From the NCBI GenBank assembly GCA_026392035.1, contig JAPLCX010000007.1, positions 1-36,338 of the forward strand: a DNA stretch of 36,338 nt. Reading direction: 5' to 3'. Below are positions 7,882-30,542 of this stretch, piece after piece. A program made the translations under genes and the position numbers. Position 1 is the stretch's first letter. Each line of letters begins with the position of its first letter. The notes below the pieces were generated by a model. It was not told the origin of the DNA, did not search any database, and saw nothing but the letters and a program-made list of their open reading frames with translations. The DNA comes from Candidatus Auribacterota bacterium (lineage in GTDB: Bacteria > Auribacterota > Tritonobacteria > UBA1439).

Positions 7882-8859
7882 TCAACCGATCCCGATCAGA
7901 TCCACGACATCGAGCATGCCGACCGGCATGCCCCTCGGGTTCACCACGGGCAGCTCATCGATCTTGCGCTTTTTCGGGTTCTCGCCCCTCATGACGCGGA
8001 GTGCCTCGACGGCGAGTCTGTCGGGGCTTATGGTGATCGGGCTGTGGATCATGAATTCCCTGATCAGGCGCATTGATACGTCCGTCTGTGTCTCGATCGC
8101 GCGGCGGAGATCTCCATCGGTGAAGATGCCCACCAGCTTCCCCGCGCGGTCAACGACTGCGGCGGCTCCTGCGCGGGCATTGGTGATCGCGAGGAGCACC
8201 TCCTTTATCCGCATATCCTCCCTGACGATCGGATTGGCCTTGCCGGTACGCATTACGTCCTTCACCTTGAGGAGCGCGCGGCCCAACTCCCCCCCCGGAT
8301 GGTAGAGTGCGAACTCCTCCGGTTTGAGTTTCTTCTTCTGGATCAGGGCGACGGCGAGGGCGTCTCCCATCGCGAGCATCGCGGTGGTGCTCGCCGTGGG
8401 CGCCAGCCCGAGGGGGCAGGCCTCGCGCTCAACAGCGACGTTGAGGATGATATCGCTGTGCGCGGCGAGTGTGGACCGCGGATTGCCCGTCATACAGATC
8501 ATAAATGCCCCGATCTTTTTCACCACGGGTATGAGCCTGAGCATCTCTTCGGTTTCGCCGCTGGATGAGAGGGACAACACCACGTCGCTCCTGGTGACCA
8601 TTCCCAGATCTCCATGAACCGCCTCGGCCGGGTGGAGGGAGAGTGAGGGGACGCCGATGCTCGCGAGCGTTGCCTGTATCTTGCGGCCAATGATACCCGG
8701 CTTGCCCATCCCGCACACGATCACCCGGCCCGCGCATTCGTAGATCGCCTCAACGGCCCGGTCAAAGTCCCTGTTCAGCTTCTTGCCGAGGGCGCGTATC
8801 GCCGCCGCCTCGATTTTGAAAACATCCTTCGCAATCCTACGGTGTGACGATGTGCTCAT
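7882..8859 (-). CDS. kdsD: Arabinose-5-phosphate isomerase (KdsD/KpsF type)
   Basis: This enzyme interconverts ribulose-5-phosphate and arabinose-5-phosphate, the first committed step to Kdo. The N-terminal SIS sugar-isomerase domain shows VIVCGMGKPGIIGRKIQATL, SLSSSGETEEML and LAPTASTTAMLAMGDALAVA. Two CBS domains follow from about residue 205 (VKDVMRTG and FMIHSPITISPDRLAVEALR) and end MPVGMLDVVDLIGIG. At 325 residues it is normal size. The second of two close ATGs (8859) is preferred because AGGA sits five bases before it; 8865 is the other. The upstream gap holds an inverted-repeat element and possibly this gene's own promoter. Confidence 0.95.
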   Translation of the reverse strand: MSTSSHRRIAKDVFKIEAAAIRALGKKLNRDFDRAVEAIYECAGRVIVCGMGKPGIIGRKIQATLASIGVPSLSLHPAEAVHGDLGMVTRSDVVLSLSSSGETEEMLRLIPVVKKIGAFMICMTGNPRSTLAAHSDIILNVAVEREACPLGLAPTASTTAMLAMGDALAVALIQKKKLKPEEFALYHPGGELGRALLKVKDVMRTGKANPIVREDMRIKEVLLAITNARAGAAAVVDRAGKLVGIFTDGDLRRAIETQTDVSMRLIREFMIHSPITISPDRLAVEALRVMRGENPKKRKIDELPVVNPRGMPVGMLDVVDLIGIG

Positions 8860-8880
8860 AGTCATCCTGCTTCACGGTTT

Positions 8881-9015: not shown

Positions 9016-9849
9016 TTATGAATCGGCGCGTTTCACGACCCGGTCGATTTCAACACACTCCCTGAGCAGCGCCGCAAGCTCTCCCAGCGCGATCTGGTTG
9101 GGGCCGTCGCAGCGCGCGCTGTCCGGCCGGGGGTGGACCTCGAGGAAGAGACCGTCGCAGCCGGCGGCAACCGCGGCCCTGGACAGAGCGGGCACGAACT
9201 CCCTCTGGCCGCCGGTGCTCGTACCGAGGCCACCGGGGAGCTGGACGCTGTGGGTCGCGTCGAAGACCACCGGGTATCCGTAGCTGCGCATGATGGGGAG
9301 CGCGCGCATATCGCTCACGAGATTATTGTAGCCGAAGCAGCTCCCCCTTTCAGTGAGCAGGAGGCCCGTTCCGCCGAACGCCTCGAACTTTCCTATGATG
9401 TTGGCGACATCCCATGGAGCGATGAATTGACCCTTTTTCACGTTCACCACGCGGCCGGAGCGGCACACCGCCTCGAGCAGATCCGTCTGTCTGCAGAGGA
9501 ACGCGGGGACCTGGAGGACATCGGCAACCGCCGCGGCCGGCATGACCTGATCCACCGCGTGCACATCGATCAGCAGGGGGAGGCGTAGATCAGCATTGAC
9601 CCTGCGCAGTATCTCGATTCCCCGCTCCAGCCCGGGGCCTCGATAGGCATCGCGCGAGCTCCGGTTGGCCTTGTCGTATGAGTTCTTGAATATGAGGGGA
9701 ATCCCGGCTGATTCGCAGATCTCCTTCAAGCCCTGTCCCACTTCCCGCAGGAGCGCTTCGCTCTCGATCACGCAGGGTCCTGCGATCAGCGCGAGTGGAA
9801 GGTCCCCGCCGATTTTTACCCCTTTGATGGCGATTACACGTGGTTTCAT
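9016..9849 (-). CDS. kdsA: 3-deoxy-8-phosphooctulonate synthase (Kdo-8-phosphate synthase)
   Basis: KdsA condenses phosphoenolpyruvate with arabinose-5-phosphate to give Kdo-8-phosphate. Recognisable motifs are LIAGPCVIES, FKNSYDKANRSS, GPGLERGIEIL, LIDVHAVDQV, NVKKGQFIAPWD, VVFDATHSVQLPGG and LEVHPRPDSARCDGPN. Cys26 in AGPC stands where the E. coli enzyme has asparagine. Together with the later His, Glu and Asp this marks the metal-dependent class of KdsA (family knowledge applied to residues I can see). Length is 277. The ATG overlaps the kdsB stop as ATGA, with GGAG five bases before it, so kdsB and kdsA are coupled. Confidence 0.97.
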   Translation of the reverse strand: MKPRVIAIKGVKIGGDLPLALIAGPCVIESEALLREVGQGLKEICESAGIPLIFKNSYDKANRSSRDAYRGPGLERGIEILRRVNADLRLPLLIDVHAVDQVMPAAAVADVLQVPAFLCRQTDLLEAVCRSGRVVNVKKGQFIAPWDVANIIGKFEAFGGTGLLLTERGSCFGYNNLVSDMRALPIMRSYGYPVVFDATHSVQLPGGLGTSTGGQREFVPALSRAAVAAGCDGLFLEVHPRPDSARCDGPNQIALGELAALLRECVEIDRVVKRADS

Positions 9850-10580
9850 TTCATCTCCAGCAATTTTCTCACCCGCTCCAGGTCTTCCGGGGTGTCGACG
9901 CCGATCGAATCATACGGTGTCTCCAGGACGCGGATGCTCACCCCGTGCTCAAGTATCCGGAGCTGCTCGAGCTTTTCCCGGAGCTCGAGCTCGGTCTGGG
10001 GCCAGCGCGTGAAGCGAAGGAGGAACTCTTTGCGGTACGCATAGAGCCCGATGTGCTTCAGGGAACATCCATTCCCGCGTGCGTCATCGCGCGTGTAGGG
10101 GATGCGCGCCCGGGAGAAGTAGAGGGCGTTGCCCTGGAGATCTCTCACCACCTTGACGATGTTTGGGTCATCGGCATCATGCGCTCCGGTCAGAGGCGTG
10201 GCCACCGTCGCCACGTTGAGCAGCGGTTCTCCGACGAGAGCGCTCACCACGGCGTCGATCGTCTCCCCCCGGATCATGGGCTCATCCCCCTGGATGTTCA
10301 CGACGATATCGCAGTCGATGCCGGCCGCGGCCTCAGCGATCCGGTCGCTCCCCGAACGATGCTCGGGAGACGTCAGGACTGCTTTCCCCCCGAACCGGGT
10401 CACCGCGTCAACTATCCGTTGATCATCGGTCGCCACGACGACGCGATCGATACACCGAGCCTTCATCGCTGATTCACAAACGAGCTGAACCAGCGGCTTC
10501 CCGCCGATTGCCTCGAGGGCCTTTCCCGGGAGCCGGGAAGAGCCGTAACGCGCGGGGATTATACCGACCGCAGAAAGCAT
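9846..10580 (-). CDS. kdsB: 3-deoxy-manno-octulosonate cytidylyltransferase (CMP-Kdo synthetase)
   Basis: KdsB activates Kdo with CTP to CMP-Kdo, the donor used by WaaA. The nucleotidyltransferase fold shows IIPARYGSSRLPGKAL at the N-terminus, VVVATDDQRIVDAV, VVNIQGDEPMI and SLKHIGLYAYRKEFL, with LRILEHGVSIRVLETPYDSI and VDTPEDLERV at the C-terminus. I place the start at the ATG at 10580, because GGGGA lies five bases upstream and the family begins close to the IPAR motif. The ATG at 10592 is the alternative. The gene follows gmhB after a gap of about 70 bases that contains an inverted repeat. Confidence 0.95.
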   Translation of the reverse strand: MLSAVGIIPARYGSSRLPGKALEAIGGKPLVQLVCESAMKARCIDRVVVATDDQRIVDAVTRFGGKAVLTSPEHRSGSDRIAEAAAGIDCDIVVNIQGDEPMIRGETIDAVVSALVGEPLLNVATVATPLTGAHDADDPNIVKVVRDLQGNALYFSRARIPYTRDDARGNGCSLKHIGLYAYRKEFLLRFTRWPQTELELREKLEQLRILEHGVSIRVLETPYDSIGVDTPEDLERVRKLLEMK

Positions 10581-10600
10581 GCGTTTCCCCATTCAAGTTT

Positions 10601-10670
10601 AACCGCGGATCATGCGGATGAATAATTGTAACAATGAAATAACCCGCCACATCAGCGTAATCCGCGGTTG
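10601..10670. repeat. Inverted-repeat element 3 (AACCGCGGAT arms), at the gmhB 3' end
   Basis: AACCGCGGATCATGCGGATG at 10601-10620 is mirrored by CATCAGCGTAATCCGCGGTT at about 10650-10669, giving a long imperfect stem around an AT-rich loop. The right arm carries the last codons and stop of gmhB. It belongs to the same general family (A-CC-CGGA-type arms) as four other gap elements in this window. No T-run follows it on the minus strand, so it is not a standard intrinsic terminator. Confidence 0.65.
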
Positions 10671-11230
10671 TTATTTTTCTTTTTCTTCGGCCTGCCCAGA
10701 ATCCATGAGACCGCCCCGGAAAGGTCCCTGGCGACGTGGTCGGGCTGCGGTGATACCGGGAGCTCCCTCAGGGTTTCCTCCCCCGCACCGGTAAGGACGA
10801 GGATGGTGCGGCAGCCCGCGTTTTTACCCGTCTCTATGTCGGAGACGCGGTCCCCGATAAAGAATGATTCCCGTAGCTCAATGCCATAACTGCGCGAGGC
10901 CTCGAGCACCATCTTGGGCGAAGGCTTGCGACAGGAACACTGCTCAGCGGGGTGATGGGGGCAGTAGTATATGCCATCCAGCACGATTCCCTCCCCGCGC
11001 AGCGCGGCCGCCATCTTGTCATGGATTTTCTTGAGGTCTTCGTCCCTGAAAAAGCCTCTCGCGATCCCCGATTGATTGCTGACGACAAATATGAGGTATC
11101 CCGCTTCGCGCAGGCGCTTGAGCGCGTTGATCACGCCGGGGAGAAAGTGAAACTTCTCAGGATCCCCGAGATACCCCGGATCAACATTGATCGTCCCATC
11201 CCTGTCCAGGAAAATCGCCTTCCGCTTCAA
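10652..11230 (-). CDS. gmhB: D-glycero-beta-D-manno-heptose 1,7-bisphosphate 7-phosphatase
   Basis: GmhB removes the 7-phosphate of heptose bisphosphate in the ADP-heptose pathway. The HAD motif FLDRDGTINVD lies at the N-terminus, followed by VVSNQSGIARGFF, the zinc loop CPHHPAEQCSCRKPSP, KMVLEASRSYGI and FIGDRVSDIETGKNAGCRTI. The reading frame runs upstream into hldA. The likely start is the TTG at 11230, whose last two bases form the hldA TGA stop. That gives 192 residues, normal for the family. The C-terminus ends in a run of lysines and asparagines (KKKKNNNRGLR). The last residues are encoded by the arm of an inverted repeat, so they are probably a late addition of no function. Confidence 0.92.
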   Translation of the reverse strand: MKRKAIFLDRDGTINVDPGYLGDPEKFHFLPGVINALKRLREAGYLIFVVSNQSGIARGFFRDEDLKKIHDKMAAALRGEGIVLDGIYYCPHHPAEQCSCRKPSPKMVLEASRSYGIELRESFFIGDRVSDIETGKNAGCRTILVLTGAGEETLRELPVSPQPDHVARDLSGAVSWILGRPKKKKNNNRGLR

Positions 11231-12219
11231 GAATGCATTGCCTCGAGAATTTCGCTCCCGCTGGCGGTCGCCGTTCCCACTTTTCCCACGACCACGCCGG
11301 CGGCATAGTTTGCCACTACGGCTGCTTCCTTCATGGCGGCTCCGGCGGCCAGCGCCGCGGTGAAGGCGCTGATCACCGTATCGCCGGCGCCTGAGACGTC
11401 GTATACCTCGCGCGCTGTTGTGGGAATTGAAGCGGGCCTCCGGCCCTTCTGGAACAGACACATCCCGTATTCACCGAGCGTGATGAGAACCCCCTTGCAT
11501 GCCAGGCGAGTGAGGAGGGAGTGTCCTATCTGATCGAGTTCGGCGCGGTCACCGGATTCAACTCCCGAGAGCCAGAGAGCCTCAGCGCGATTGGGGGTGA
11601 TGACGGTGATCCCGCGGTAGTCGAGCCGGTGCCCCATCTTGGGGTCTACCGAGACCAATGTGCCGTGCTTTTTGGCAAGCGGTACCAGTTCGCTCACGAG
11701 CCGCTGCGTCACCAGCCCCTTCCCGTAGTCTTCGATGATGATCGCGTCAACCGTGCGCACGATGGATTTAACGTAGGCGACGAGCTGTGAAGTCTCACGG
11801 TCTCCGACCTCGACTCTATTCTCCTTGTCAACGCGGACCATCTGTTGGCTGTGGGCGATGATTCTCGTTTTCAGCGTGGTGGTCCGTTCGGGATTGACCA
11901 TGATCCCCCCGAGGTCGATCCTCTCGTGGGTGAGCTTATCCCGCAGAATGCGTCCGATGAGGTCGTCTCCGACGATTCCGCATACGTACGTCTTGGCTCC
12001 CAGCGCGCAGAGGTTATTCACCACGTTTGCGGAGCCCCCGGGCATGTCTGACTCAGAGGTCACCTCAACAATCGGCACCGGTGCTTCAGGAGAAATCCGT
12101 GAAACGGAACCCCAGATGAACCGGTCGAGCATGAGATCCCCCACCACGAGGATGCTGAGCTGATCAAACTGTTTAAAGAGGCGATCGAGTTTTTGCCGGG
12201 GTATCGTGTGTGCGCTCAT
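11227..12219 (-). CDS. hldA: D-glycero-beta-D-manno-heptose-7-phosphate kinase (RfaE domain I only)
   Basis: This PfkB/ribokinase-family enzyme phosphorylates heptose-7-phosphate at position 1. Motifs seen are LVVGDLMLDRFIWGSVSRIS, PGGSANVVNNLCALGA, VDPKMGHRLDYRGITVITPN and the C-terminal DVSGAGDTVISAF, which carries the catalytic aspartate. Length is 330. The adenylyltransferase domain of bifunctional HldE is missing, so the ADP-transfer step must be done by a separate HldC/RfaE2 encoded outside the window, along with GmhA and HldD. The start overlaps the preceding stop as ATGA and the end overlaps gmhB. Confidence 0.93.
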   Translation of the reverse strand: MSAHTIPRQKLDRLFKQFDQLSILVVGDLMLDRFIWGSVSRISPEAPVPIVEVTSESDMPGGSANVVNNLCALGAKTYVCGIVGDDLIGRILRDKLTHERIDLGGIMVNPERTTTLKTRIIAHSQQMVRVDKENRVEVGDRETSQLVAYVKSIVRTVDAIIIEDYGKGLVTQRLVSELVPLAKKHGTLVSVDPKMGHRLDYRGITVITPNRAEALWLSGVESGDRAELDQIGHSLLTRLACKGVLITLGEYGMCLFQKGRRPASIPTTAREVYDVSGAGDTVISAFTAALAAGAAMKEAAVVANYAAGVVVGKVGTATASGSEILEAMHS

Positions 12220-13163
12220 AGTCTCTCGATAATTGCACGGCTGAGGAGCGGTATCATGATCTCATGGTGGCCGATTATGTAGTATCCCCTGCCGCCGGCG
12301 GCGACGGGGCGCCGCACTACGTTCTGCATGGCGCGATATTGAACCATCATGTCGAACGTCGCGGTAGTGAAATTCGCGACCCGTATGCCGGAGTTTCGGA
12401 CGACGGTCAGCGCCTTGAGAAAAACCTCAGGGAGGATGACGGCCGAGCCGATGTTGAGCATCACGCCGCCGCCTCCGAGATTGGCGACCACATCGGTAAA
12501 CAACCTGAAATCGTTCATGGTCGTCTGACCGAGGATTCTGCCATCCGCCTGCGGGTGTTGATGAATGGTATCCGTCCCGATCGCAATGTGCACGGTTGCC
12601 GGCAGGCGCAGGCGCACGGCCTGGGCGAGAAGGCTCGCATCCCGATGGGGCAGCCTCTTTTTAAGGATGTAGAGCCCGATTGCCCATCCGGCGCCAAGCC
12701 CGCTGGCATCCCCTGCCGCCAGGGCATCGTTCATCATGGCCCCGGTCTCTTCCGCCATGCCAAACGTGCCCTTATTGAGCCCTTCCTGGACGTCCTCGGA
12801 CGTTTTTCCGGCCAGGGCAATCTCGAAATCGTGAATGCTCGTGGCCCCGTTCATGGCCAGCGCCGTGATGATGCCGCGACGCATGAGGTCAATGATAACC
12901 CTGTTAAGGCCGCACTTCACCACATGCCCACCGACGGCTGCGATCACCGGTTTTGATCGCCGGTGAGCCCGCACAATTGCGTCCACGAATTCTCGCAACT
13001 CGCTGGCTGCCAGTATGTTGGGAAGCGAGTCAAGGAAGGCTTGAAATGTTTCGCCCTTGCGGCATGCCCTGCCGAACATCGCGAGGGAAACCTTGCTCTT
13101 CCTGCGGGCTATGGGGATAGTTTTTACACGGCGCGCCAGGGGAATCCACCTCTTTTTTGCCAT
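12216..13163 (-). CDS. Deoxyhypusine-synthase-like protein lacking the catalytic lysine
   Basis: The 315-residue protein follows the deoxyhypusine/homospermidine synthase fold in order. Segments are NRVIIDLMRRGIITALAMNG with ATSIHDFEIALAG (about 87-119), DASLLAQAVRLRLPATVHIAI with GTD (175-198), GGGGVMLNIGSAVILPEV (230-247), NFTTATFDMMVQYRAM (264-279) and YYIIGHHEIMIPLLSRA (294-310). The lysine that forms the imine in true deoxyhypusine synthase lies in a GGGVxKHH-type motif. Here that place reads GSAVILPEV, so lysine seems replaced. Bacteria lack the eIF5A substrate, so deoxyhypusine synthesis is unlikely. It is first in an operon with hldA and gmhB behind a good promoter, which hints at a sugar or envelope role, unknown. 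The match is by eye. Confidence 0.65.
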   Translation of the reverse strand: MAKKRWIPLARRVKTIPIARRKSKVSLAMFGRACRKGETFQAFLDSLPNILAASELREFVDAIVRAHRRSKPVIAAVGGHVVKCGLNRVIIDLMRRGIITALAMNGATSIHDFEIALAGKTSEDVQEGLNKGTFGMAEETGAMMNDALAAGDASGLGAGWAIGLYILKKRLPHRDASLLAQAVRLRLPATVHIAIGTDTIHQHPQADGRILGQTTMNDFRLFTDVVANLGGGGVMLNIGSAVILPEVFLKALTVVRNSGIRVANFTTATFDMMVQYRAMQNVVRRPVAAGGRGYYIIGHHEIMIPLLSRAIIERL

Positions 13164-14869: not shown

Positions 14870-15910
14870 TCACGGGCTGCCCCCTGCTGTTGCGATGGTT
14901 TCTTCTACTGCTTCACAGACTGTTTCCGCGCGGATGGCGCTCATGCAGTGCGGGCCCCTGTCGCAGTCCCTCTGGTAGCAGGGACGGCAGTCCACGGGCG
15001 CGCAGATCACCCGGTGATGCGCGCCATAGGGGCCCGTGCGACGGTGGTTGGTGGGGCCGAACAGTGCTACGACGGGGATGCCGAGTGCAGCCGCGAGGTG
15101 CATCGGGCCGCTATCGGTGGTCACCAGCACGTCAAGCCTCTTGAGGAGCGCTGCCATCTTAAGGGGATCCGCGATCCTGTCAACCGCGAGCGCCCGCCCT
15201 TTCATCAACCGCGCGACTGCGTCACCCCCTCCCGAGGTCCCGCCGATGATCACGACCTCAGTCCCCGCGGATGACAGGAGATCCCCTACGCGGGCGCAGC
15301 GCTCATACGGCCATCGCTTTGTCTTCCATCTGGCTGAGGGAGAAAGTCCCACGATAGGTGCGCGGCGCCGCGGACGTCTCGCCTGCAGGACCTGTGCGGC
15401 CCAGGCTTCCTCCTCCTCGCCGGTGCCGAGGGGAAAGGTCACTTCGCGTCTTCGGCCGGCGAGGGCCTCGGCGACGAGCAGGTACCGGTCCACCGAGTGC
15501 ATCTCCTCATCAGGAACACCAACCCTGGATGTGTAGAAAAGCTGGGCGCACTCACGGGCGTTTGCGAAACCCGCACGGGTCGGCGCGCCGGTCATGGCAG
15601 TGAGCACACCACTCCTGAAAAGGCCCTGCAGGTCCAGGACCGTGTCGAAGCGCGCGCCGTACAGCTGGCGGCACAGGCGGGCAAAGGATGTGATGGCCTC
15701 GGGGAGATTCCTCTGGGCCCTCCACAAATGGCGCTGGAAGAGAAACAGGCGATCAATGCAGGGATTGTGCTCCAGGAGCCGCCGGTACTGGGTGTTGACC
15801 AGCCAGGAGATCCGCGCGCCCGGCCACGCACTCCTCAGGTGGGCTGCCACCGGGAGGGCCTGGACGATATCACCGAATGAGCTCGGTTTTATGATGAGGA
15901 TGTTTTTCAT
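14870..15910 (-). CDS. GT9 heptosyltransferase-family LPS core transferase (copy 1)
   Basis: Heptosyltransferases of family GT9 add ADP-activated heptose to the LPS inner core on the cytoplasmic face. The N-terminal IIKPSSFGDIVQALPVAAHL, the middle DTVLDLQGLFRSGVLTAMTG and GLSPSARWKTKRWP, and the donor-site TTDSGPMHLAAALGIPVV followed by ALFGPT are characteristic. The cysteine-rich end (VDCRPCYQRDC and CMSAI) is common in the family. Length is 346. The ATG follows the stop of the two-domain kinase directly, with AGAGG upstream. It looks closer to WaaC (heptosyltransferase I) than the copy at 23835, but this assignment is inference. Confidence 0.9.
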   Translation of the reverse strand: MKNILIIKPSSFGDIVQALPVAAHLRSAWPGARISWLVNTQYRRLLEHNPCIDRLFLFQRHLWRAQRNLPEAITSFARLCRQLYGARFDTVLDLQGLFRSGVLTAMTGAPTRAGFANARECAQLFYTSRVGVPDEEMHSVDRYLLVAEALAGRRREVTFPLGTGEEEEAWAAQVLQARRPRRRAPIVGLSPSARWKTKRWPYERCARVGDLLSSAGTEVVIIGGTSGGGDAVARLMKGRALAVDRIADPLKMAALLKRLDVLVTTDSGPMHLAAALGIPVVALFGPTNHRRTGPYGAHHRVICAPVDCRPCYQRDCDRGPHCMSAIRAETVCEAVEETIATAGGSP

Positions 15911-17629
15911 CTAGTCCTCTGTGCCCTCGGCGTGCAGCGTTGAGCTGCGGGAGAATCTCCGCTTCCTCTTCACGAGATTTCTTCTCGTCTGTCGCGCGAT
16001 CGCTTTCCACATCGGCCTCAGCTCCCGGCGCCGGCGTGTCCCCAGATAGGTTTTGAGAAAGCTCAGTCGATCCCGGATGCTGACGTATGACAGATTGAGG
16101 AGCGACATATTGACCTGTACCATATTGCGCAGGACATTCCTCCGGGAGAGCCTGAGCTTGGTGCGCACGAAGTCCAGATCCGTGAGGTACAACGTGGGCC
16201 TCCCCACGCGGTTTTTTCCCACGAGGATATTCGTCGCCTTCATATCGCCGTGGTAGACGCCCAGGAGGTGGATTCTCCTGAAGAAGAGGGCCAGGGCTCG
16301 GATGAGCTCTTTCCGAGCCTGGCTCGCGGCGTGGCAGGAATGTGCCAGTTTCGCGAGCGCTGCCACCAGGTTCTCCACGGATAGGATCTTATCGGTGATG
16401 AGGTAGGCGTCCCCGAGCAGGTGCATGGCGCGCCTTTCCTCCATGGCGGCGATCGCATTCACCGCGTTCACGTTCCGTATCCGGAGGGCGTAGGCGCCCT
16501 TCCACGAACGGATGGCCTGCGAGCGGCGCCAGAGATACTTGAACGCCTGCCATCCGCGCTTCCTCTTGTAGTGTTTGATGAAGAGCCTCCTCTGCGCCGC
16601 CTGGACGGTAACCTCCTTTTCCCACATAGACTTGCTCCGCGACTCCTTGACAAGGGACGCCCCCGCCCGCGCCATATCACGGGCGAGGAGGAGTTCGGCT
16701 ATTTCGCCCTTCCACTCCTCCCGCCGGGCGAATCCTTTGAGGTGCGCGAATCTGAGACGCATGAAGTACTTATTGCTATTCCGGCAGCGCTTTTCCCTGT
16801 GTCGCCAGAGCTTCCACCGCATTGCCCTGGTCCGGGTGTCTATGAGCGTGAGGAGGGCCCTCTTCTCATTTTTCCAGGGCTCATCCTCGCCGAAGTAAGA
16901 GTTGAAGAAGAGAAGCCGTTCGCCGATGCTGAGGGAGATGCTCGCGAACATATTGAACTGGGCGAGGCTCTTGATCCGATGCTTGAGCGCGAGCGATGGC
17001 CTCGCGCTCGCGCGGTGGAGGTCGAGGAGGTAAATACACTTCTCCCCCGAGGGGAGCGTCTCCACAAGAAAATTCCCCGGATGGAGGTCCTGGTGGTAGA
17101 TGCCGTAGTCGTGCATCCGCCTGAGGAGCGTGGCGAGGAGGGCGATCAGCTCCCTCCGCGTCCGCGCATCGGCCCGGAGCGTCCCATCGTCGGAGAAGAG
17201 CGCCTCTTCAAGGGTGACGCAATTGAAGAGGCGCACGGTCAAGAGGTAGCTCTCCATGAGTATGCCGGACCTGCGGCGCTCGCCATAGGCGACTGGTACC
17301 ACCGTTGGCAATCCTCGCTCTGCGGCGGCGGTGGTAATCCGCCATTCCCTGCGAGCCTTCGACCCGCACACATTGGCCTTGATCCAGTCCCCCAGCCTTC
17401 CGCGGCGGTAGATCTTGATGATGAGGGGGAGTTCCTTCTTTCCTGCCGGGATCGAGGCAGAGAAAATGATCCGCATGGGTGATCTCTTTATGAGCTCCCC
17501 CGTGCGTTCCCGGAGGAGTTGCCTCGGATCCGGCGTGCGCGGGGCGAGGAAGATCGGCGCGTACGCGGCAGACACCTGCCAGCATATTCCGTTGCTGTCC
17601 CTTACCGTAACGACGTTACTGTGCGTCAT
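15911..17629 (-). CDS. Two-domain WaaP/Kdo-kinase-like protein (tandem sugar kinase)
   Basis: This 572-residue protein carries two complete lipopolysaccharide-kinase-like domains. In domain 1 the ATP lysine is in LPLIIKIYRR (about 72), the catalytic loop is YHQDLHPGNFLV (Asp181) and the metal motif is YLLDLHR (Asp203). In domain 2 they are RRLFIKHYKRKRG (Lys352), YHGDMKATNILV (Asp462) and YLTDLDFVR (Asp484). Both look catalytically competent. Known relatives are single-domain inner-membrane-associated enzymes (WaaP, KdkA, WaaY) that phosphorylate core heptose or Kdo. A fused pair could add two phosphates to one core. The start is the ATG at 17629, four bases after the ligase stop. The open frame further upstream is only repeat sequence. 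Confidence 0.85.
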   Translation of the reverse strand: MTHSNVVTVRDSNGICWQVSAAYAPIFLAPRTPDPRQLLRERTGELIKRSPMRIIFSASIPAGKKELPLIIKIYRRGRLGDWIKANVCGSKARREWRITTAAAERGLPTVVPVAYGERRRSGILMESYLLTVRLFNCVTLEEALFSDDGTLRADARTRRELIALLATLLRRMHDYGIYHQDLHPGNFLVETLPSGEKCIYLLDLHRASARPSLALKHRIKSLAQFNMFASISLSIGERLLFFNSYFGEDEPWKNEKRALLTLIDTRTRAMRWKLWRHREKRCRNSNKYFMRLRFAHLKGFARREEWKGEIAELLLARDMARAGASLVKESRSKSMWEKEVTVQAAQRRLFIKHYKRKRGWQAFKYLWRRSQAIRSWKGAYALRIRNVNAVNAIAAMEERRAMHLLGDAYLITDKILSVENLVAALAKLAHSCHAASQARKELIRALALFFRRIHLLGVYHGDMKATNILVGKNRVGRPTLYLTDLDFVRTKLRLSRRNVLRNMVQVNMSLLNLSYVSIRDRLSFLKTYLGTRRRRELRPMWKAIARQTRRNLVKRKRRFSRSSTLHAEGTED

Positions 17630-17633
17630 AGCG

Positions 17634-18980
17634 TCAATTGAGATTCTGTTGGGGTTTTGGATTTGGGATTTGGGATTCGGCAGCACCGGTTCCCATCGCA
17701 TAGAGCATGGCGAGAAACAGGATGACAGTGAAGTTGATGTGCATGAATGAACCCCCGGTGAACCTCCCCGTCCAGCTGCAGTCTACAAGTGAAAAGACGA
17801 GAAACGCAGCGAGGGCGGCCGCGAGCCCCTGTACCAGCGCGTGCCGGACAGGATCGCGGTCGTCCCTCATGCGAGCGCGAATGGCGCGGCACAGGGCGAG
17901 CACGCCCCATGCGCATGCGCACAGTCCTCCCACTCCGGACTCCGCCCCCACCTGCAAAAAGAGATTGTGCGCGTGGTCCCGGTAGGTCAATTTCTCCCGT
18001 GGGGCGCGCGCCACATTTCTTGTATCCGCAGCATCCTCAAACCGGAAGCAGGCTGTTCGAAACTCACCCGGCCCTACGCCGAGGAGGGGGCGCGCGCGGA
18101 TCATGCGCAGCGCATCTTTCCAGACCACCAGCCGCTTTTCCACGTTGCGGTCGCGCATCTGCCCTATGGAGAGGAAGCGGTTGAGCGCCCTCCGGTGCGG
18201 GAGGAACTGGAGCGCGAGGATGGCGGCAACCAGCAGCGCAACCAGCCTCCAGGAACGAAACAGGGAGAACAGGAGGGCCGCGCCGACCATTGCGATCCAG
18301 GCGCCGCGCGAGTAGCTGTACACCACGCAGAGAAAAATCACAAAGAGGCCGGGAACGAATGCCGCGGCGCGCCATCCGCGGCGATGCCCCCTCGCATCGC
18401 ACGCCGCCTTCGGTCGCGCGATCAAGGCGGTGCTCAGGGATAGCGCCAGCACCATAAAAAGGCCAAGGGCATTCTTGCCGTCCCAGAATGGATACCCCCG
18501 GTCAATCATCTTCCACATCCCCTGCCGGTAGTGGTAGGCGATATTGACCGAGGCGACCACCACCGCAACGGAGAAGAGCGCGAGGATCACCCTGCGGCTG
18601 TCCACCGCCGTCCGCAGGAGATAGAGGCTTGCGTAGAAGAAGGTTGCATAGAGGATGATTTCAAGAATCGCGTCCACTCTCTCCGCGGGAGTTCCAAAAG
18701 GCGAGAGGAGCGCAGAGACACAGTTCGCAGCGAGGAACAGCAGGATCGGGTACCCGAGCGTACCGCTGGTAAGGTAGCGGCGCGGATGAAGGAGGAATGC
18801 CAGGAGCCAGAGGGAGCAGAGGAGGAACACGATATTCTGGGCGCTGGTGAGGCTCACCTGACCGAACGGCGTGGCGAACTTCAACCATGAGGGCCTCAGG
18901 AATATGAGCGCCAGCGCGGGATAGAACACGCACAGTGATAACCGGTCTATGGCCAGAAGGAGTCGGTCTTTCATCGTCAT
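17634..18980 (-). CDS. O-antigen ligase/polymerase family membrane protein (Wzy_C domain)
   Basis: The roughly 448-residue product has about ten or more hydrophobic segments. A large polar loop contains the Wzy_C region VWKDALRMIRARPLLGVGPG followed by EFRTACF and the key LTYRDHAHNLFLQVGAESGV, with the conserved histidine pair. Proteins of this family either attach O-chains to lipid A-core (WaaL) or polymerise O-units (Wzy). The location within a core gene island favours WaaL but does not prove it. I use the ATG at 18980; a GTG at 19001 or ATG at 18974 are alternatives. The last residues (SQIPNPKPQQNLN) are encoded by a heptamer repeat tract, so the true domain ends before them. Confidence 0.85.
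   Translation of the reverse strand: MTMKDRLLLAIDRLSLCVFYPALALIFLRPSWLKFATPFGQVSLTSAQNIVFLLCSLWLLAFLLHPRRYLTSGTLGYPILLFLAANCVSALLSPFGTPAERVDAILEIILYATFFYASLYLLRTAVDSRRVILALFSVAVVVASVNIAYHYRQGMWKMIDRGYPFWDGKNALGLFMVLALSLSTALIARPKAACDARGHRRGWRAAAFVPGLFVIFLCVVYSYSRGAWIAMVGAALLFSLFRSWRLVALLVAAILALQFLPHRRALNRFLSIGQMRDRNVEKRLVVWKDALRMIRARPLLGVGPGEFRTACFRFEDAADTRNVARAPREKLTYRDHAHNLFLQVGAESGVGGLCACAWGVLALCRAIRARMRDDRDPVRHALVQGLAAALAAFLVFSLVDCSWTGRFTGGSFMHINFTVILFLAMLYAMGTGAAESQIPNPKPQQNLN
17651..17680. repeat. GGATTTG heptamer tract in the ligase gene 3' end
   Basis: Three adjacent GGATTTG-type units with a degenerate GGGGTTTT start lie within the final codons of the O-antigen ligase gene. The same unit recurs at 23770-23800 and 30587-30621. 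Confidence 0.8.
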
Positions 18981-18987
18981 GGGATCA

Positions 18988-19968
18988 TCATTCCCAGACA
19001 CTCACCAGGAACTTGATGAGGTCACGCTTGATAAATGAGCAATACGCCCGGAGCCGCGCTTCCTTCTCCGCCATCTTGTTGCCGCGGTGCGGCCTCAGCC
19101 TGTAGAGGGATATCCTGAGCGCCGCGCGGCCCGCGTCAAAACAGATCCCGAAGGCGAAGAGGGGTCTGAATACAAGTTCAAACAAGGAGCTCCTGAACAT
19201 TCCCTCGTGTGTGCGAAAGTAGCGCAGCATGCTCTGGAGCCCCGGCAGAATGATCTGCTCCCTGTTCTGTCGCCGGCTGCGGCCCCCGTAGTGCGTGATG
19301 TGCGCCCCGGGGAAGAGGTAGATCCGGTAGCCCGCGTCCCTGATCCGCCGGCAGAGGTCGACCTCTTCGAAGAACATGAAGTAGCGTTCGTCGAGGAGCC
19401 CGACCTCCGCGAGCACGCTCTGCCGGAGGAAGAGCGCCGCGCCCGAGGGTTGATCGACCTCCATCGCGGCATCGAAACGCACGCCGCGCATTTTCACAAA
19501 ATCGCACCTCCTCCTGAACAGTCCCATGCGACCGAGGATGGTCTTGGCGCCGAGTGCGAACGCGAACGTCGGGAACCGCCTCACCGCGTGCTGCACGCTC
19601 CCATCCTCGTTGAGCAGCAAGCAGCCGCACGCCGCCGCCTCGGGATGGTGGTCCATAAAGCCGGCCACCCCTTCGAGCGCCAGGGGGTGCACCCTCGTGT
19701 CGGGGTTGAGGAGGAGCGAGTACCGCCCGCTTGAGATTCTCAGCGCCTGGTTATTGGCTGCGGCGAACCCCCTGTTCTCGCCGTTTGGGATCAGGTGGAC
19801 CCAGGGGAACTTTTCCCTGACGAGATCCGCAGAGCCGTCCCGGGAGGCGTTATCCACCACAAACGTCTCGAATGAGAGCGATCCGGCGCCCGCCGCGAGC
19901 GAGGAGAGGCACTCGCCAAGGTAATCTTTTGAGTTCCAGCTCACTATGACAATGGAGATATCGATCAT
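18988..19968 (-). CDS. GT2-family glycosyltransferase (rhamnosyltransferase-like)
   Basis: The 326-residue cytoplasmic GT-A enzyme begins ISIVIVSWNSKDYLGECLSS. It shows FVVDNASRDGSADLV, NRGFAAANNQALRISSG, the metal-binding LLLNPDTRVHPLAL, and the acceptor region FMFFEEVDLCRRIRDAGYRI (EEVDL motif). The end is hydrophobic and basic, suggesting contact with the membrane. The overall pattern resembles WbbL-like rhamnosyltransferases, but the sugar is not decidable. The ATG overlaps the stop of the preceding GT4 gene as ATGA, and its stop is eight bases before the ligase start, placing it in the outer-core or O-unit part of the island. Confidence 0.88.
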   Translation of the reverse strand: MIDISIVIVSWNSKDYLGECLSSLAAGAGSLSFETFVVDNASRDGSADLVREKFPWVHLIPNGENRGFAAANNQALRISSGRYSLLLNPDTRVHPLALEGVAGFMDHHPEAAACGCLLLNEDGSVQHAVRRFPTFAFALGAKTILGRMGLFRRRCDFVKMRGVRFDAAMEVDQPSGAALFLRQSVLAEVGLLDERYFMFFEEVDLCRRIRDAGYRIYLFPGAHITHYGGRSRRQNREQIILPGLQSMLRYFRTHEGMFRSSLFELVFRPLFAFGICFDAGRAALRISLYRLRPHRGNKMAEKEARLRAYCSFIKRDLIKFLVSVWE

Positions 19969-21128: not shown

Positions 21129-21776
21129 CTAGCGTTCCTTCAGCGCGACGAGCAGGATTGATTTTGCGAAATCGACGGAGAAATACTTATGGAGGGGAGC
21201 GGCAATCCAGATCCTGAACAATCGGCGGAAAAATGCATCATTGTATATTCTGAATATGCGCGTCACCTTGAAGCCGAGAGAGATGAGAATGCCGCCGATC
21301 TCATCGTAGCGATAGGTGACCTTGTGGGAGTATTCCCAGTACCGGTTGGGGTGGAACGCGTTGGGAGTGGTCAGAATCAGCTTTCCCCCCGGGAGCAGCA
21401 TCTTGTGGATTTCGCTCAGGAGATGTATGCCGTCTTCAAAGGTGAGGTGCTCGATGACCTCGAAGATGAAGACGACGTTGAACCTTTCCTTGATTTCGTC
21501 AAGAGAGTAATAATCCTGCGTTGTCTCACGGTCTATGTCCATGCTTTTATAGGATATCGAGCGGCCGCACAGATCGACGAGAGCGTGCCTCAGCTCTCGC
21601 GTGGAAGAGCCTATGTCCAGGATCTTGTCGCCATCCTTCACCTCTTCCAGAATCACCTCCAGGTGCTTCTTGCGCACCTGCAGGTCCCAGAAATCCGGGA
21701 AGTTTCTCTGAATCTCCCGCCTGGTTTTATAGAGCGTGCTCCAGCTCGTCTTGAGTGTTTCCAGCGTGTTCTTCAT
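21129..21776 (-). CDS. Class I SAM-dependent methyltransferase
   Basis: This 215-residue protein has the SAM-binding motif I DGDKILDIGSSTRELRHAL, an acidic end of beta-2 (YKSMDIDRE), FNVVFIFEVIEHLTFEDGIH and LLPGGKLILTTPNAFHPNRYW, the last two typical of the Methyltransf_11/23 group. The C-terminal third is hydrophobic and aromatic. In an LPS island it may methylate a sugar residue or cap an O-chain, but the substrate is unknown. The gene is much AT-richer than its neighbours (56 of 120 bases are G or C at 21421-21540, against 43 of 60 at 20401-20460), which suggests recent acquisition. It starts 12 bases after the WaaP-like gene. Confidence 0.85.
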   Translation of the reverse strand: MKNTLETLKTSWSTLYKTRREIQRNFPDFWDLQVRKKHLEVILEEVKDGDKILDIGSSTRELRHALVDLCGRSISYKSMDIDRETTQDYYSLDEIKERFNVVFIFEVIEHLTFEDGIHLLSEIHKMLLPGGKLILTTPNAFHPNRYWEYSHKVTYRYDEIGGILISLGFKVTRIFRIYNDAFFRRLFRIWIAAPLHKYFSVDFAKSILLVALKER

Positions 21777-21788
21777 AGTGGGGATACC

Positions 21789-22637
21789 TCACGCGCGCTC
21801 CTGGGGAGGGAATGAACGAGCTCCTCCCCGCTCTTTCTTGAGATCGTGTCTCCTGATCATTTCCGTTTTGCGAGCGATCCTCCTCAGGAACGCTTTTCCT
21901 CCCGCATCCAGCTTCATGGTATCGAGGTAGCGGTGGAGGAAACGCATCCGGTCAGCGCGGCTCACCGCGGATGACGGTGAAGAATAGTTCAGCGCCGCGA
22001 GGTCTTTCACGACCCATCGATTCGCGCCGCGGGCTTTCTGCTGAACCCTCTGAAGGTCAATCAGGGCTGGCCGGAAGCCCCCCCCTGAGGATTGAAGGAA
22101 GACGTGGCTCAGATAGAGGTCCCTGTGATTCAGTCCGGCCCGGTGCATCCTGCGCACACCGTCAGCCAGCGCCGCTATTATACCTCTCTTTTCCCTGAAT
22201 TTCCCGCACAAAAATCTCACGTAGTCCTCGAGACGCCTGCCCCCGATTTCAACGGTCACAATGAAGGAGGGGCCTCGCCAGGGGAACCATCTCCTCTCTC
22301 CGAATGCCGGAGCGGTCATTGTCTCAACCCCCGCGGCGCGCAATTTTACAATCGCCTCCCGCTCGTGCGCCGCTGCGGAGGAGGGCCACCTCCCGCTCAG
22401 CAGTTCATTCAGTGCCTCGCGGAGGGAGCCGCGGGTGTGCCGCTTCAGGTAGAGCCTCTCCGGATGCTCGCCGCCGAGGGTAACGCGCTCGATTGTCCGG
22501 ATTCCCTTATCCCGCACAAGCTCACCGCCGGCAAAATCCATGAATGCGGTGAACGAGTCGAGGCCGAGGGCCTTGAGCCTGTCACGATAGCGGTCATCAA
22601 CAACGAGTTTTCCCCGCCGGTCAAAGAGGATGGCCAT
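21789..22637 (-). CDS. WaaP-like LPS core sugar kinase
   Basis: The 282-residue product has the WaaP/Kdo-kinase layout: ERLYLKRHTRGS (Lys65 for ATP), AAHEREAIVKLRAAGVETMT, the catalytic loop MHRAGLNHRDLYLSHVFLQ (Asp173) and the metal motif PALIDLQRVQ (Asp194). HRDLYxxH is particularly WaaP-like. WaaP adds phosphate to the first core heptose, strengthening outer-membrane cross-bridging. The frame extends far upstream inside the WaaG-like gene. The real start is the ATG at 22637, with GGAGG six bases before it and 17 bases of overlap with the preceding gene. The WaaG-WaaP pairing is the same as in enteric core clusters. With the two-domain kinase this makes three kinase domains in one island. 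Confidence 0.9.
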   Translation of the reverse strand: MAILFDRRGKLVVDDRYRDRLKALGLDSFTAFMDFAGGELVRDKGIRTIERVTLGGEHPERLYLKRHTRGSLREALNELLSGRWPSSAAAHEREAIVKLRAAGVETMTAPAFGERRWFPWRGPSFIVTVEIGGRRLEDYVRFLCGKFREKRGIIAALADGVRRMHRAGLNHRDLYLSHVFLQSSGGGFRPALIDLQRVQQKARGANRWVVKDLAALNYSSPSSAVSRADRMRFLHRYLDTMKLDAGGKAFLRRIARKTEMIRRHDLKKERGGARSFPPQERA

Positions 22638-25904: not shown

Positions 25905-26831
25905 TTAGTCTCGAACGGATTGAGGAAGGGGGGGCGTGGTGCCGCGCGGTATGAAGCATCTCACGACCAGCAGCATCAGGAGGAGCATGATCCAACCGAA
26001 GACCCCGGTGACCACACGCCCATCGCCGAAGAACCACGGCGCGAAATGGTTCATCCGGTCAAAGAAGAGGCTTTCAGCCTTGATGCCGAATACCCACCCG
26101 GCGTGGAGCCCGATGGACAGATAGAGTGAGCCTGTCCGCAGGTAGGCGTACGTCAGCACGATGCTGACGAGGAACAGCCCGATGAAACCGGGGATCACCT
26201 CTGAGGGAGAGAGGAGCGGCTGGAAAAAATAGGCGAGCGCCTTGAAGCCGAGGAGGGGATGGGATCCGTGCGAGGCGGGCATATCCGAGGCGTTAAAGAA
26301 ATGGACAATCGCGAAGAAGAGGCTCATGGACACGACCGCCGTTGACCGGCGCAGGTTCTTGAACAGGCTCTGGAGGATGAATCCCCTGAAGAAAGGCTCT
26401 TCGATGAATCCCACCACAGCTCCGGCGAGGAAGGCAATGACGAGCTGGCGGGCGAGGTCCCATGCCCCTGAAAATGAGGTCTCGGGGCGGCGTGAGCCGA
26501 AAAGCACCATAATAAAAAGCATAAGGGCGAGTGAACAGGTCCCGAGAATCCATCCGCGACCGAGGAGCGATCGCCACCCCGGCTCGCGTCTCATCCCGAT
26601 TGAGGCAAGCGATACGATCTCCAGCTTCGCGCGAGCTATGTAAAAGAGGAGAATGGTCACCACGAGCACCACCCGCCGCATCACCCGGTCAAAGGGGAAG
26701 TCAAGTGCGCGGTGCATGCCGGGCGATAATCCCCGCAGGAACTGGAGCACGAAGTCGGCCACAGGTGAAATGAGACAACTCAGCAACAGTGAGATGAGAA
26801 TAATAAGTCCAAGGCGCTGGTATGATTTCAT
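25905..26831 (-). CDS. CPBP-family intramembrane metalloprotease (CAAX-like, Abi)
   Basis: The 308-residue polytopic protein has about eight hydrophobic segments and the three CPBP motifs: VVGFIEEPFFRGFILQSLF (the EExxxR motif), MSLFFAIVHFF (first histidine) and LYLSIGLHAGWVFGIKAE (second histidine). Family members cleave within membranes or serve as immunity or regulatory proteins; the substrate here is unknown. I start at the ATG at 26831; a TTG at 26846 is open as well. It is separated from lpxA by an inverted-repeat element and from the next gene by a terminator, so it seems to be transcribed independently of the core island. Confidence 0.88.
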   Translation of the reverse strand: MKSYQRLGLIILISLLLSCLISPVADFVLQFLRGLSPGMHRALDFPFDRVMRRVVLVVTILLFYIARAKLEIVSLASIGMRREPGWRSLLGRGWILGTCSLALMLFIMVLFGSRRPETSFSGAWDLARQLVIAFLAGAVVGFIEEPFFRGFILQSLFKNLRRSTAVVSMSLFFAIVHFFNASDMPASHGSHPLLGFKALAYFFQPLLSPSEVIPGFIGLFLVSIVLTYAYLRTGSLYLSIGLHAGWVFGIKAESLFFDRMNHFAPWFFGDGRVVTGVFGWIMLLLMLLVVRCFIPRGTTPPLPQSVRD

Positions 26832-26941
26832 GATTTCACAATGCAATCGGTTGAGGAGCCCACACTCGCCCTACAGAAATGTGGTCTCGAGAGGGATCGA
26901 GGGCATGAACTGATTTCAACCGGATACGTGACTCAGTATGT

Positions 26942-29240: not shown

Positions 29241-30542
29241 TCAATCAGCGGATTTCACGAGAAGTTTCTTAATAATTTCCAGGTTCCGACGTGTCGCCCC
29301 GCGGCTGAGGGACATGCTCTCTGCGGCGCGCCGCCCCATTGACTCGCGGGCGTCCCTGTCCCTGAGGAGGAACGTGAGCGCCTCCTGCAGCGCGCGCGCA
29401 TTGCCGACCTGTATGGCTCCCTTATTTTTAAGGAGCAGCTCCGCGGCCTCGCGGAAGTTGTGCATGGAGGGGCCGAAGAGCACCGCCTTCCCCATGCTCG
29501 CCGGTTCGATGATATTCTGCCCCCCGCCTGCCACGAGGCTCTTTCCCACAAAGACGACCGTCGCGGCGCGGTATATGTCCACGAGCTCGCCTATCGTATC
29601 CACAATGAGCACCGCGCGGGGAGGGAGCGCTTCCCCGCGGGACATGCATGATCTGAGGACGCACCGCTCCCCCCGTGCCTCCGCGAGGGCCTTCACTTCA
29701 GCGGCCCTCTCCGGATGCCGCGGGACGATGATCAGCGCTGGTTCGCCCCCCGCGCTCCTGACAGCCCGGTACGCGTCGAGCACGATCTCCTCTTCCCCCC
29801 TGTGCGTGCTGCCGGCGACAATCACATCCTGGCGCGGGCTTAAGCCGAGCGAGGAGATGATGGTGAGGCGGGCCTGTTCGTCGCCGGGGGTTATTCCACA
29901 GTCGAATTTCATGTTTCCGGTTATGGCGATCTTCTCCGAGGGGGCGCCTATGGCCTGGATTCTCCGCGCGTCGAGATCCGTCTGCATGCTGAAGATGGCC
30001 ACCCTGCTCAAGAAGCGTTTCAGGAAGGAGCGGGCGCAGCGGTAGCCGGGGAAGGACCGATCTGAGATCCGGCCGTTGATGATGGCAATCGGAATGCGCT
30101 TCTCGGCGGCGGCGCAGATGAAGTTCGGCCAGATTTCAGTCTCAACAAGAACGATCAGTTCGGGGGATATGAGCCGCAGCGCGCGCCTCACCGCGAAGCT
30201 CATGTCCAGAGGGAAGTAGATCACCACCCCCGCGTCTCCGATTTTCTCCCCGGCCACCCTCTGGCCGGTGAGGGTCACGGTTGAGAGCAGGATCTGCAAC
30301 TCGGGCAGCTCTGCGTGAACGCGCTTCACGAGCGGCATCACCGCGAGCACTTCGCCGACAGAAACTGCGTGGAACCATACGCGCCTCCCGCCCCCGAGCC
30401 GCCGCCTCACTGAATGGGGGTAGAAGCCGAGGCGCTGTTTCAGGCCGACGCGATATTTCTCACGACGCGCCACCTGCACCGCGTAGTACGGCAGGGTGAG
30501 GATAAAATAGAGTGTGATGAGTATATTGTACAGGAACATCAT
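29241..30542 (-). CDS. waaA: 3-deoxy-D-manno-octulosonic acid (Kdo) transferase
   Basis: WaaA transfers Kdo from CMP-Kdo to lipid IVA, starting the inner core. The 433-residue protein has an N-terminal membrane helix (MMFLYNILITLYFILTLPYY), RLGFYPHSVRRRLGGGRRVW, FHAVSVGEVLAVMPLVKRV (containing the catalytic glutamate), LVETEIWPNFICAAAEKRIP, VAGSTHRGEEEIVLDAYRAV, FVGKSLVAGGGQNIIEPASM and GPSMHNFREAAELLL. All are standard. How many Kdo units it adds cannot be told. GGAGG is 12 bases before the ATG, slightly far. It lies between xerC and the repeat element before lpxK. Confidence 0.96.
   Translation of the reverse strand: MMFLYNILITLYFILTLPYYAVQVARREKYRVGLKQRLGFYPHSVRRRLGGGRRVWFHAVSVGEVLAVMPLVKRVHAELPELQILLSTVTLTGQRVAGEKIGDAGVVIYFPLDMSFAVRRALRLISPELIVLVETEIWPNFICAAAEKRIPIAIINGRISDRSFPGYRCARSFLKRFLSRVAIFSMQTDLDARRIQAIGAPSEKIAITGNMKFDCGITPGDEQARLTIISSLGLSPRQDVIVAGSTHRGEEEIVLDAYRAVRSAGGEPALIIVPRHPERAAEVKALAEARGERCVLRSCMSRGEALPPRAVLIVDTIGELVDIYRAATVVFVGKSLVAGGGQNIIEPASMGKAVLFGPSMHNFREAAELLLKNKGAIQVGNARALQEALTFLLRDRDARESMGRRAAESMSLSRGATRRNLEIIKKLLVKSAD

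Follow-up and report, generated by a model that had tools for sequence, protein, structure and literature searches.

A two-domain member of the LPS-kinase family in Auribacterota, with one conventional and one atypical kinase site

The locus and its genes

The window, that is the whole stretch of 36,338 nucleotides analysed here (contig JAPLCX010000007.1, assembly GCA_026392035.1), is an LPS locus from a member of the Auribacterota, a phylum within the PVC group. It holds LptA/B/C-like, LpxK and LpxA-like genes, acyltransferases, two GT9 genes and other glycosyltransferases, together with the features listed in Table 1. One of its genes encodes two kinase domains in one chain, which we call the N-half and the C-half. 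We preferred the start of this gene at 17629 to an upstream ATG at 17701 because homologue alignments begin at residue 4-5, and because the upstream gene ends at 17634.

Table 1. Coordinates of the tandem kinase gene, its two domains and other genes of the window
Feature	Coordinates	Strand	Remarks
Tandem kinase gene, predicted to act on the LPS core	15911..17629	-	572 aa; ATG at 17629, TAG stop 15911-15913
N-half kinase domain, residues about 1-285	16775..17629	-	K72, E95, H-x-D181-x-H183-x-x-N186, D203-L-H; complete active site
C-half kinase domain, residues about 301-572	15914..16729	-	K352, S375, W376, H-x-D462-x-K464-x-x-N467, D484-x-D486
GT9 (heptosyltransferase-family) gene	14870..15910	-	ATG follows kinase TAG directly
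O-antigen-ligase-like gene (Wzy_C)	17634..19001	-	directly upstream of tandem kinase gene
WaaP-like kinase, putative heptose kinase	21789..22637	-	single-domain, 282 aa; the locus's third kinase domain; scores 156.8 bits with the RfaP model (cutoff 170)
GmhB	10652-11461	-	ADP-heptose supply; above curated cutoff
HldE domain I	11227-12219	-	ADP-heptose supply; above curated cutoff
KdsD	7882-8865	-	Kdo supply
KdsA	9016-9849	-	Kdo supply
KdsB	9846-10592	-	Kdo supply
WaaA (Kdo transferase)	29241..30542	-	E 9.9e-107; under curated equivalog cutoffs
CPBP/Rce1-like membrane protease gene	25905-26846	-	
GSU2086-family gene	12216-13163	-	weakly like deoxyhypusine synthase
Methyltransferase-like gene	21129-21776	-	adjoins WaaP-like kinase gene

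An earlier note on this DNA had suggested that phosphate on the core replaces the negative charge otherwise given by sugar acids. The gene content does not support this. KdsD, KdsA, KdsB and WaaA, all encoded in the window, provide for the synthesis and transfer of Kdo, which is a sugar acid too, and two NDP-sugar dehydrogenases of the genome score above cutoff, so that acidic sugars are available.

The relatives of the window's own family (f1) keep the gene order ligase, tandem kinase, GT9, acyltransferase. Two f1 relatives (L047 and L048) have the CPBP/Rce1-like protease gene at the corresponding position, and the GSU2086-family gene, which here stands between heptose and lipid A genes, is also close to the kinase locus in L046. 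The methyltransferase-like gene is kept in f1 relatives too, and core O-methylation is a possible role for it.

Two kinase folds and two kinds of active site

Profile searches with each half alone placed both in PF06293, the Kdo/WaaP kinase family, for which the curated cutoff is 21.3 bits: the N-half scored 68.2 bits (E 8.7e-19) and the C-half 59.4 bits (E 4.3e-16). A search of the genome found three PF06293 domains, namely the two halves and the single-domain kinase encoded upstream, which, as had been proposed, is WaaP-like and groups with E. coli WaaP in the WaaP clade of a tree of 56 domains. With three such domains encoded, the core could carry several phosphates.

AlphaFold2 predicted two complete kinase folds for the whole chain (mean pLDDT 87.1, in a model built from 12 tandem homologues), and the C-half modelled alone gave a pLDDT of 87.5. 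WaaP of P. aeruginosa (6dfl) was the top Foldseek match of both models (TM by target 0.70 for the whole chain and 0.69 for the C-half alone) and the best PDB match for the sequence profile of each half; the predicted fold is thus the ELK fold of WaaP. The second Foldseek match of the whole chain was a JAK dimer. Profiles and model together bear out the proposal that two LPS-kinase-family domains are fused in this protein.

The key residues of WaaP are Lys51, Glu78 of the alpha-C helix, which pairs with that ATP-binding Lys, an HRD motif and a DFG-like DLH motif (PMC6147952). All have counterparts in the N-half (K72, E95, D181 and D203), whereas the C-half keeps K352, D462 and D484 but has Ser375 in place of the alpha-C Glu. 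The assignment of S375 to the position of E95 is anchored by an adjacent conserved Trp (W96 and W376) and by profile-profile alignment, and agrees with the equivalent helices of the model, 91-104 in the N-half and 371-384 in the C-half; the latter helix offers no other acidic residue able to substitute. The six catalytic residues named in the earlier note are exactly where it had put them, and N186 and N467 complete the loops. Its description of two full sets of kinase residues is correct for the three residues listed in each half, but not for the usual four, since the C-half has Ser375 instead of the fourth. Neither half of the window protein has lost its catalytic Lys or HxD Asp, the losses by which we recognise a pseudokinase.

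We aligned the window protein with eleven other tandem proteins, which share about 20-62% identity with it. All four of K72/D181/N186/D203 and all four of K352/D462/N467/D484 are invariant across the 12, and invariance across such divergence argues that these residues are not there by chance. The loop signatures of the two halves nevertheless differ: every N-half has DxHxxN, and the majority of intact C-halves have DxKxxN. This consistent difference indicates that the halves are not redundant copies.

Both halves share family and fold with WaaP/RfaP, and the N-half also shares its Lys, alpha-C Glu, HxD and D-L-H. WaaP differs from the tandem in being single-domain, as stated in the earlier note (265 aa in E. 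coli), and in having a His in the catalytic loop (PMC6147952) where both tandem halves have Asn. WaaP also needs acyl-ACP (PMC6147952). The curated models assigned neither half to WaaP or KdkA, since scores fell far under the curated cutoffs: 87.1 bits (N-half) and 37.1 bits (C-half) against 170 for the WaaP/RfaP equivalog NF011703, and 34.9 and 35.1 bits against 142 for the KdkA equivalog NF002475. The latter model, which describes one domain of 241 positions, is matched below its cutoff by every member of both half sets. E. coli WaaY, the heptose(II) kinase, belongs to the same superfamily and is a core kinase of the waa locus, but it too is a single domain (232 aa), and on our tree it sits on a very long branch (length 4.9) that gives no reliable placement. 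Family, fold and the single-domain E. coli enzymes are already known, and the tandem is a variant on them; the characterised LPS kinases compared here have a single domain.

Distribution, ancestry and decay of the C-half

Counting PF06293 matches within the same open frame, we found ORFs with two such domains in 26 of the 44 genomes of the phylum. The N-C tandem of the window type occurs in 22 of the 44, spread over eight families (f1, f2, f4 and f13-f17). The full-length architecture, for which the earlier note had advised a search, is hence not unique to this genome; our literature search found no paper on tandem LPS kinases or on an LPS pseudokinase. In G020 (L004), a further f1 relative, the N- and C-halves are split between two frames. 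Occurrence beyond the phylum was surveyed by one contig scan across genomes with a single query sequence. A standalone C-type kinase is present in Victivallis (L005), close to a KdsD-like gene. No relative was found among the viral contigs searched, and a plasmid search with P0001 or WaaP returned only records of E. coli and none of Pseudomonas.

In the tree of 56 domains, which contains no KdkA sequence, the C-halves form one group (support 98/97), the WaaP-like domains form another (100/100) that leaves out both tandem halves, and the N-halves lie between the two without clear unity. Judged from these sequences, the N- and C-halves represent two subfamilies that separated long ago, and WaaP is distinct from either. 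A recent internal duplication was discarded as the origin of the tandem, the halves being only 27% identical by profile alignment and belonging to these old, separate groups.

The two halves have fared differently within the phylum. The active site of the N-half is complete in 22 rows of our inventory from eight families (one row is truncated before the Lys), while the alpha-C Glu is absent from the C-half in all 23 rows. The remaining four residues of the C-half (K/D/N/D) are intact in 13 tandem rows from six families (f1, f2, f4, f13, f14 and f17) and in the standalone Victivallis protein; in the window's family and the five others, equivalents of K352, D462, K464 (or Gln), N467 and D484 are kept at 18-55% identity. 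Within f1, the C-half evolves faster than the N-half (52-55% versus 62-69% identity).

The nine C-halves of f15 and f16 show a further step. Their catalytic Lys is replaced by Val, Ser, Thr, Met or Glu and their HxD Asp by Asn, Ser, Gly or Ala, with f16 residues assigned from a low-identity alignment, and those of f15 have lost the DFG Asp as well. In these chains the N-half has remained intact. One change on the tree suffices to explain the loss, support for the branch uniting f15 and f16 being moderate (85/61). From the residues that they have lost, the C-half has decayed to an inactive form in these two sister families, and its catalysis must be dispensable there.

The tandem kinase also travels with a glycosyltransferase. 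Flanks were read at 17 N-C loci, and at 13 of them, with loci of f13, f14, f15 and f16 included, a GT9 gene adjoins the tandem kinase gene; f2 (L049) and L079 showed no such adjacency. In G040, a single ORF of 868 aa (L014:355-2958, minus strand) carries a GT9 domain (147 bits) behind two PF06293 domains. This kinase-kinase-GT9 fusion argues for a functional tie between tandem kinase and GT9, and suggests that sugar addition and phosphorylation are possibly coupled.

Proposed function and alternatives

Through divalent cations, the phosphates of the LPS core keep the outer membrane together. We propose that the tandem protein is a two-domain LPS inner-core kinase, a normal sugar kinase in its N-half and an atypical kinase in its C-half, and we give this reading a probability of about 0.55. 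The N-half, with its conventional ELK fold, Lys72-Glu95 pair, HxD181xHxxN186 loop and D203, would most likely phosphorylate a core sugar, and its target would probably be the residue added by the heptosyltransferase-family enzyme of the next gene; LPS core as substrate and heptose as sugar are our predictions from this context. In the lineage of the window, the C-half probably binds ATP and phosphorylates a neighbouring core position, or else assists the N-half. The WaaP-like enzyme encoded upstream would then be the HepI kinase. Our confidence in catalysis is high for the N-half and evenly balanced for the C-half.

The strongest competing explanation is that only the N-half transfers phosphate, helped by a catalytically weak or dead C-half that would bind ATP or LPS so as to position or activate it. 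This we regard as a real possibility, if a weaker one than the reading above. It would account for the general lack of the alpha-C Glu, for the faster evolution of the C-half in f1, and for its retention in nine f15/f16 rows despite the loss of catalytic Lys and HxD Asp; in f13/f16 ORFs of about 910-950 aa, an unrelated pairing, the first domain also lacks the catalytic Asp. However, conservation of K/D/N/D equivalents in six families at such low identity goes beyond the needs of a scaffold and favours C-half activity in this genome, and the same C-type subfamily stands alone in Victivallis. Nor is loss of the alpha-C Glu disabling by itself, as the HSK2 kinase family has Phe in that position (PMC1821047). 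The absence of this Glu, along with decay elsewhere, favours a C-half role independent of it. Since sister families have turned the C-half into a pseudokinase with the N-half still intact, the domain could be retained for its fold alone, as a partner. The pseudokinase lineages therefore add weight to the earlier note's alternative, in which one domain holds the other at the substrate, while its description of both halves as apparently active is plausible as regards the C-half.

Two other explanations fare worse. The C-half could instead act on a partner in LPS assembly, as a protein kinase or some other ATP-dependent transferase: its HxDxKxxN loop is of the kind usual in Ser/Thr protein kinases, and PDB protein kinases are among the matches of its profile. 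Yet it scores far better with PF06293 than with Pkinase (59.4 versus 19.4 bits), WaaP is its best match in both sequence and structure, and the genes of the locus concern LPS synthesis only, which makes this improbable. As for a sequencing or assembly error that fused two adjacent kinase genes, the frame-split halves of G020 do show that separate versions occur, but the in-register ORF was found independently in 22 genomes of eight families and its linker region can be aligned within f1. The same ORF in independent genomes leads us to dismiss an artefact, whose probability is negligible.

Extending the preferred reading, that of an inner-core kinase with an atypical second site, to the whole phylum is more speculative. 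The tandem would then be an LPS core kinase with two sites, where different, anciently separated subfamilies serve two core positions, the second site working without an alpha-C Glu, the protein being physically tied to a heptosyltransferase and reduced in some lineages to a kinase-pseudokinase pair. We consider this generalisation doubtful as a whole.

This tandem, which pairs an intact site with one that varies from atypical to dead, offers a natural series for asking whether the second domain acts as an enzyme or as an allosteric partner. This question is familiar from eukaryotic kinase-pseudokinase pairs, and was not raised for LPS kinases in the literature searched. JAK and plant tandem kinases likewise have two kinase folds per chain, one of which can lose catalysis, but they are protein kinases; the likeness is architectural only and the pairing is not of common ancestry. 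PA5006 of P. aeruginosa is reported as a putative LPS kinase with a length of 493 aa or more, of which a fragment, residues 300-493, has been cloned (PMC8707732). Its gene shares an operon of LPS core kinases with wapQ, wapP and waaP, and at that length the protein is too long for one such domain; its reported length and operon make it a possible tandem precedent.

Members of the family also occur in other combinations. G005 (L073/L057) has two adjacent tandem genes, one of the N-C type (526 aa) and one of a WaaP-WaaP type (558 aa), giving four kinase domains in a row. The proteins of about 910-950 aa in f13/f16 (L023, L024, L037, L039, L044 and L060) consist of an N-terminal part that contains hydrophobic stretches, a PF06293 domain and an intact WaaP-like domain; it is in L023 and L024 that the first PF06293 domain lacks its catalytic Asp. 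Fusions to other glycosyltransferases include GT2 with a C-type kinase domain (L058:7783-9558, minus strand, 592 aa) and GT4/GT1 with a kinase domain (L031:1477-3411, minus strand, 645 aa).
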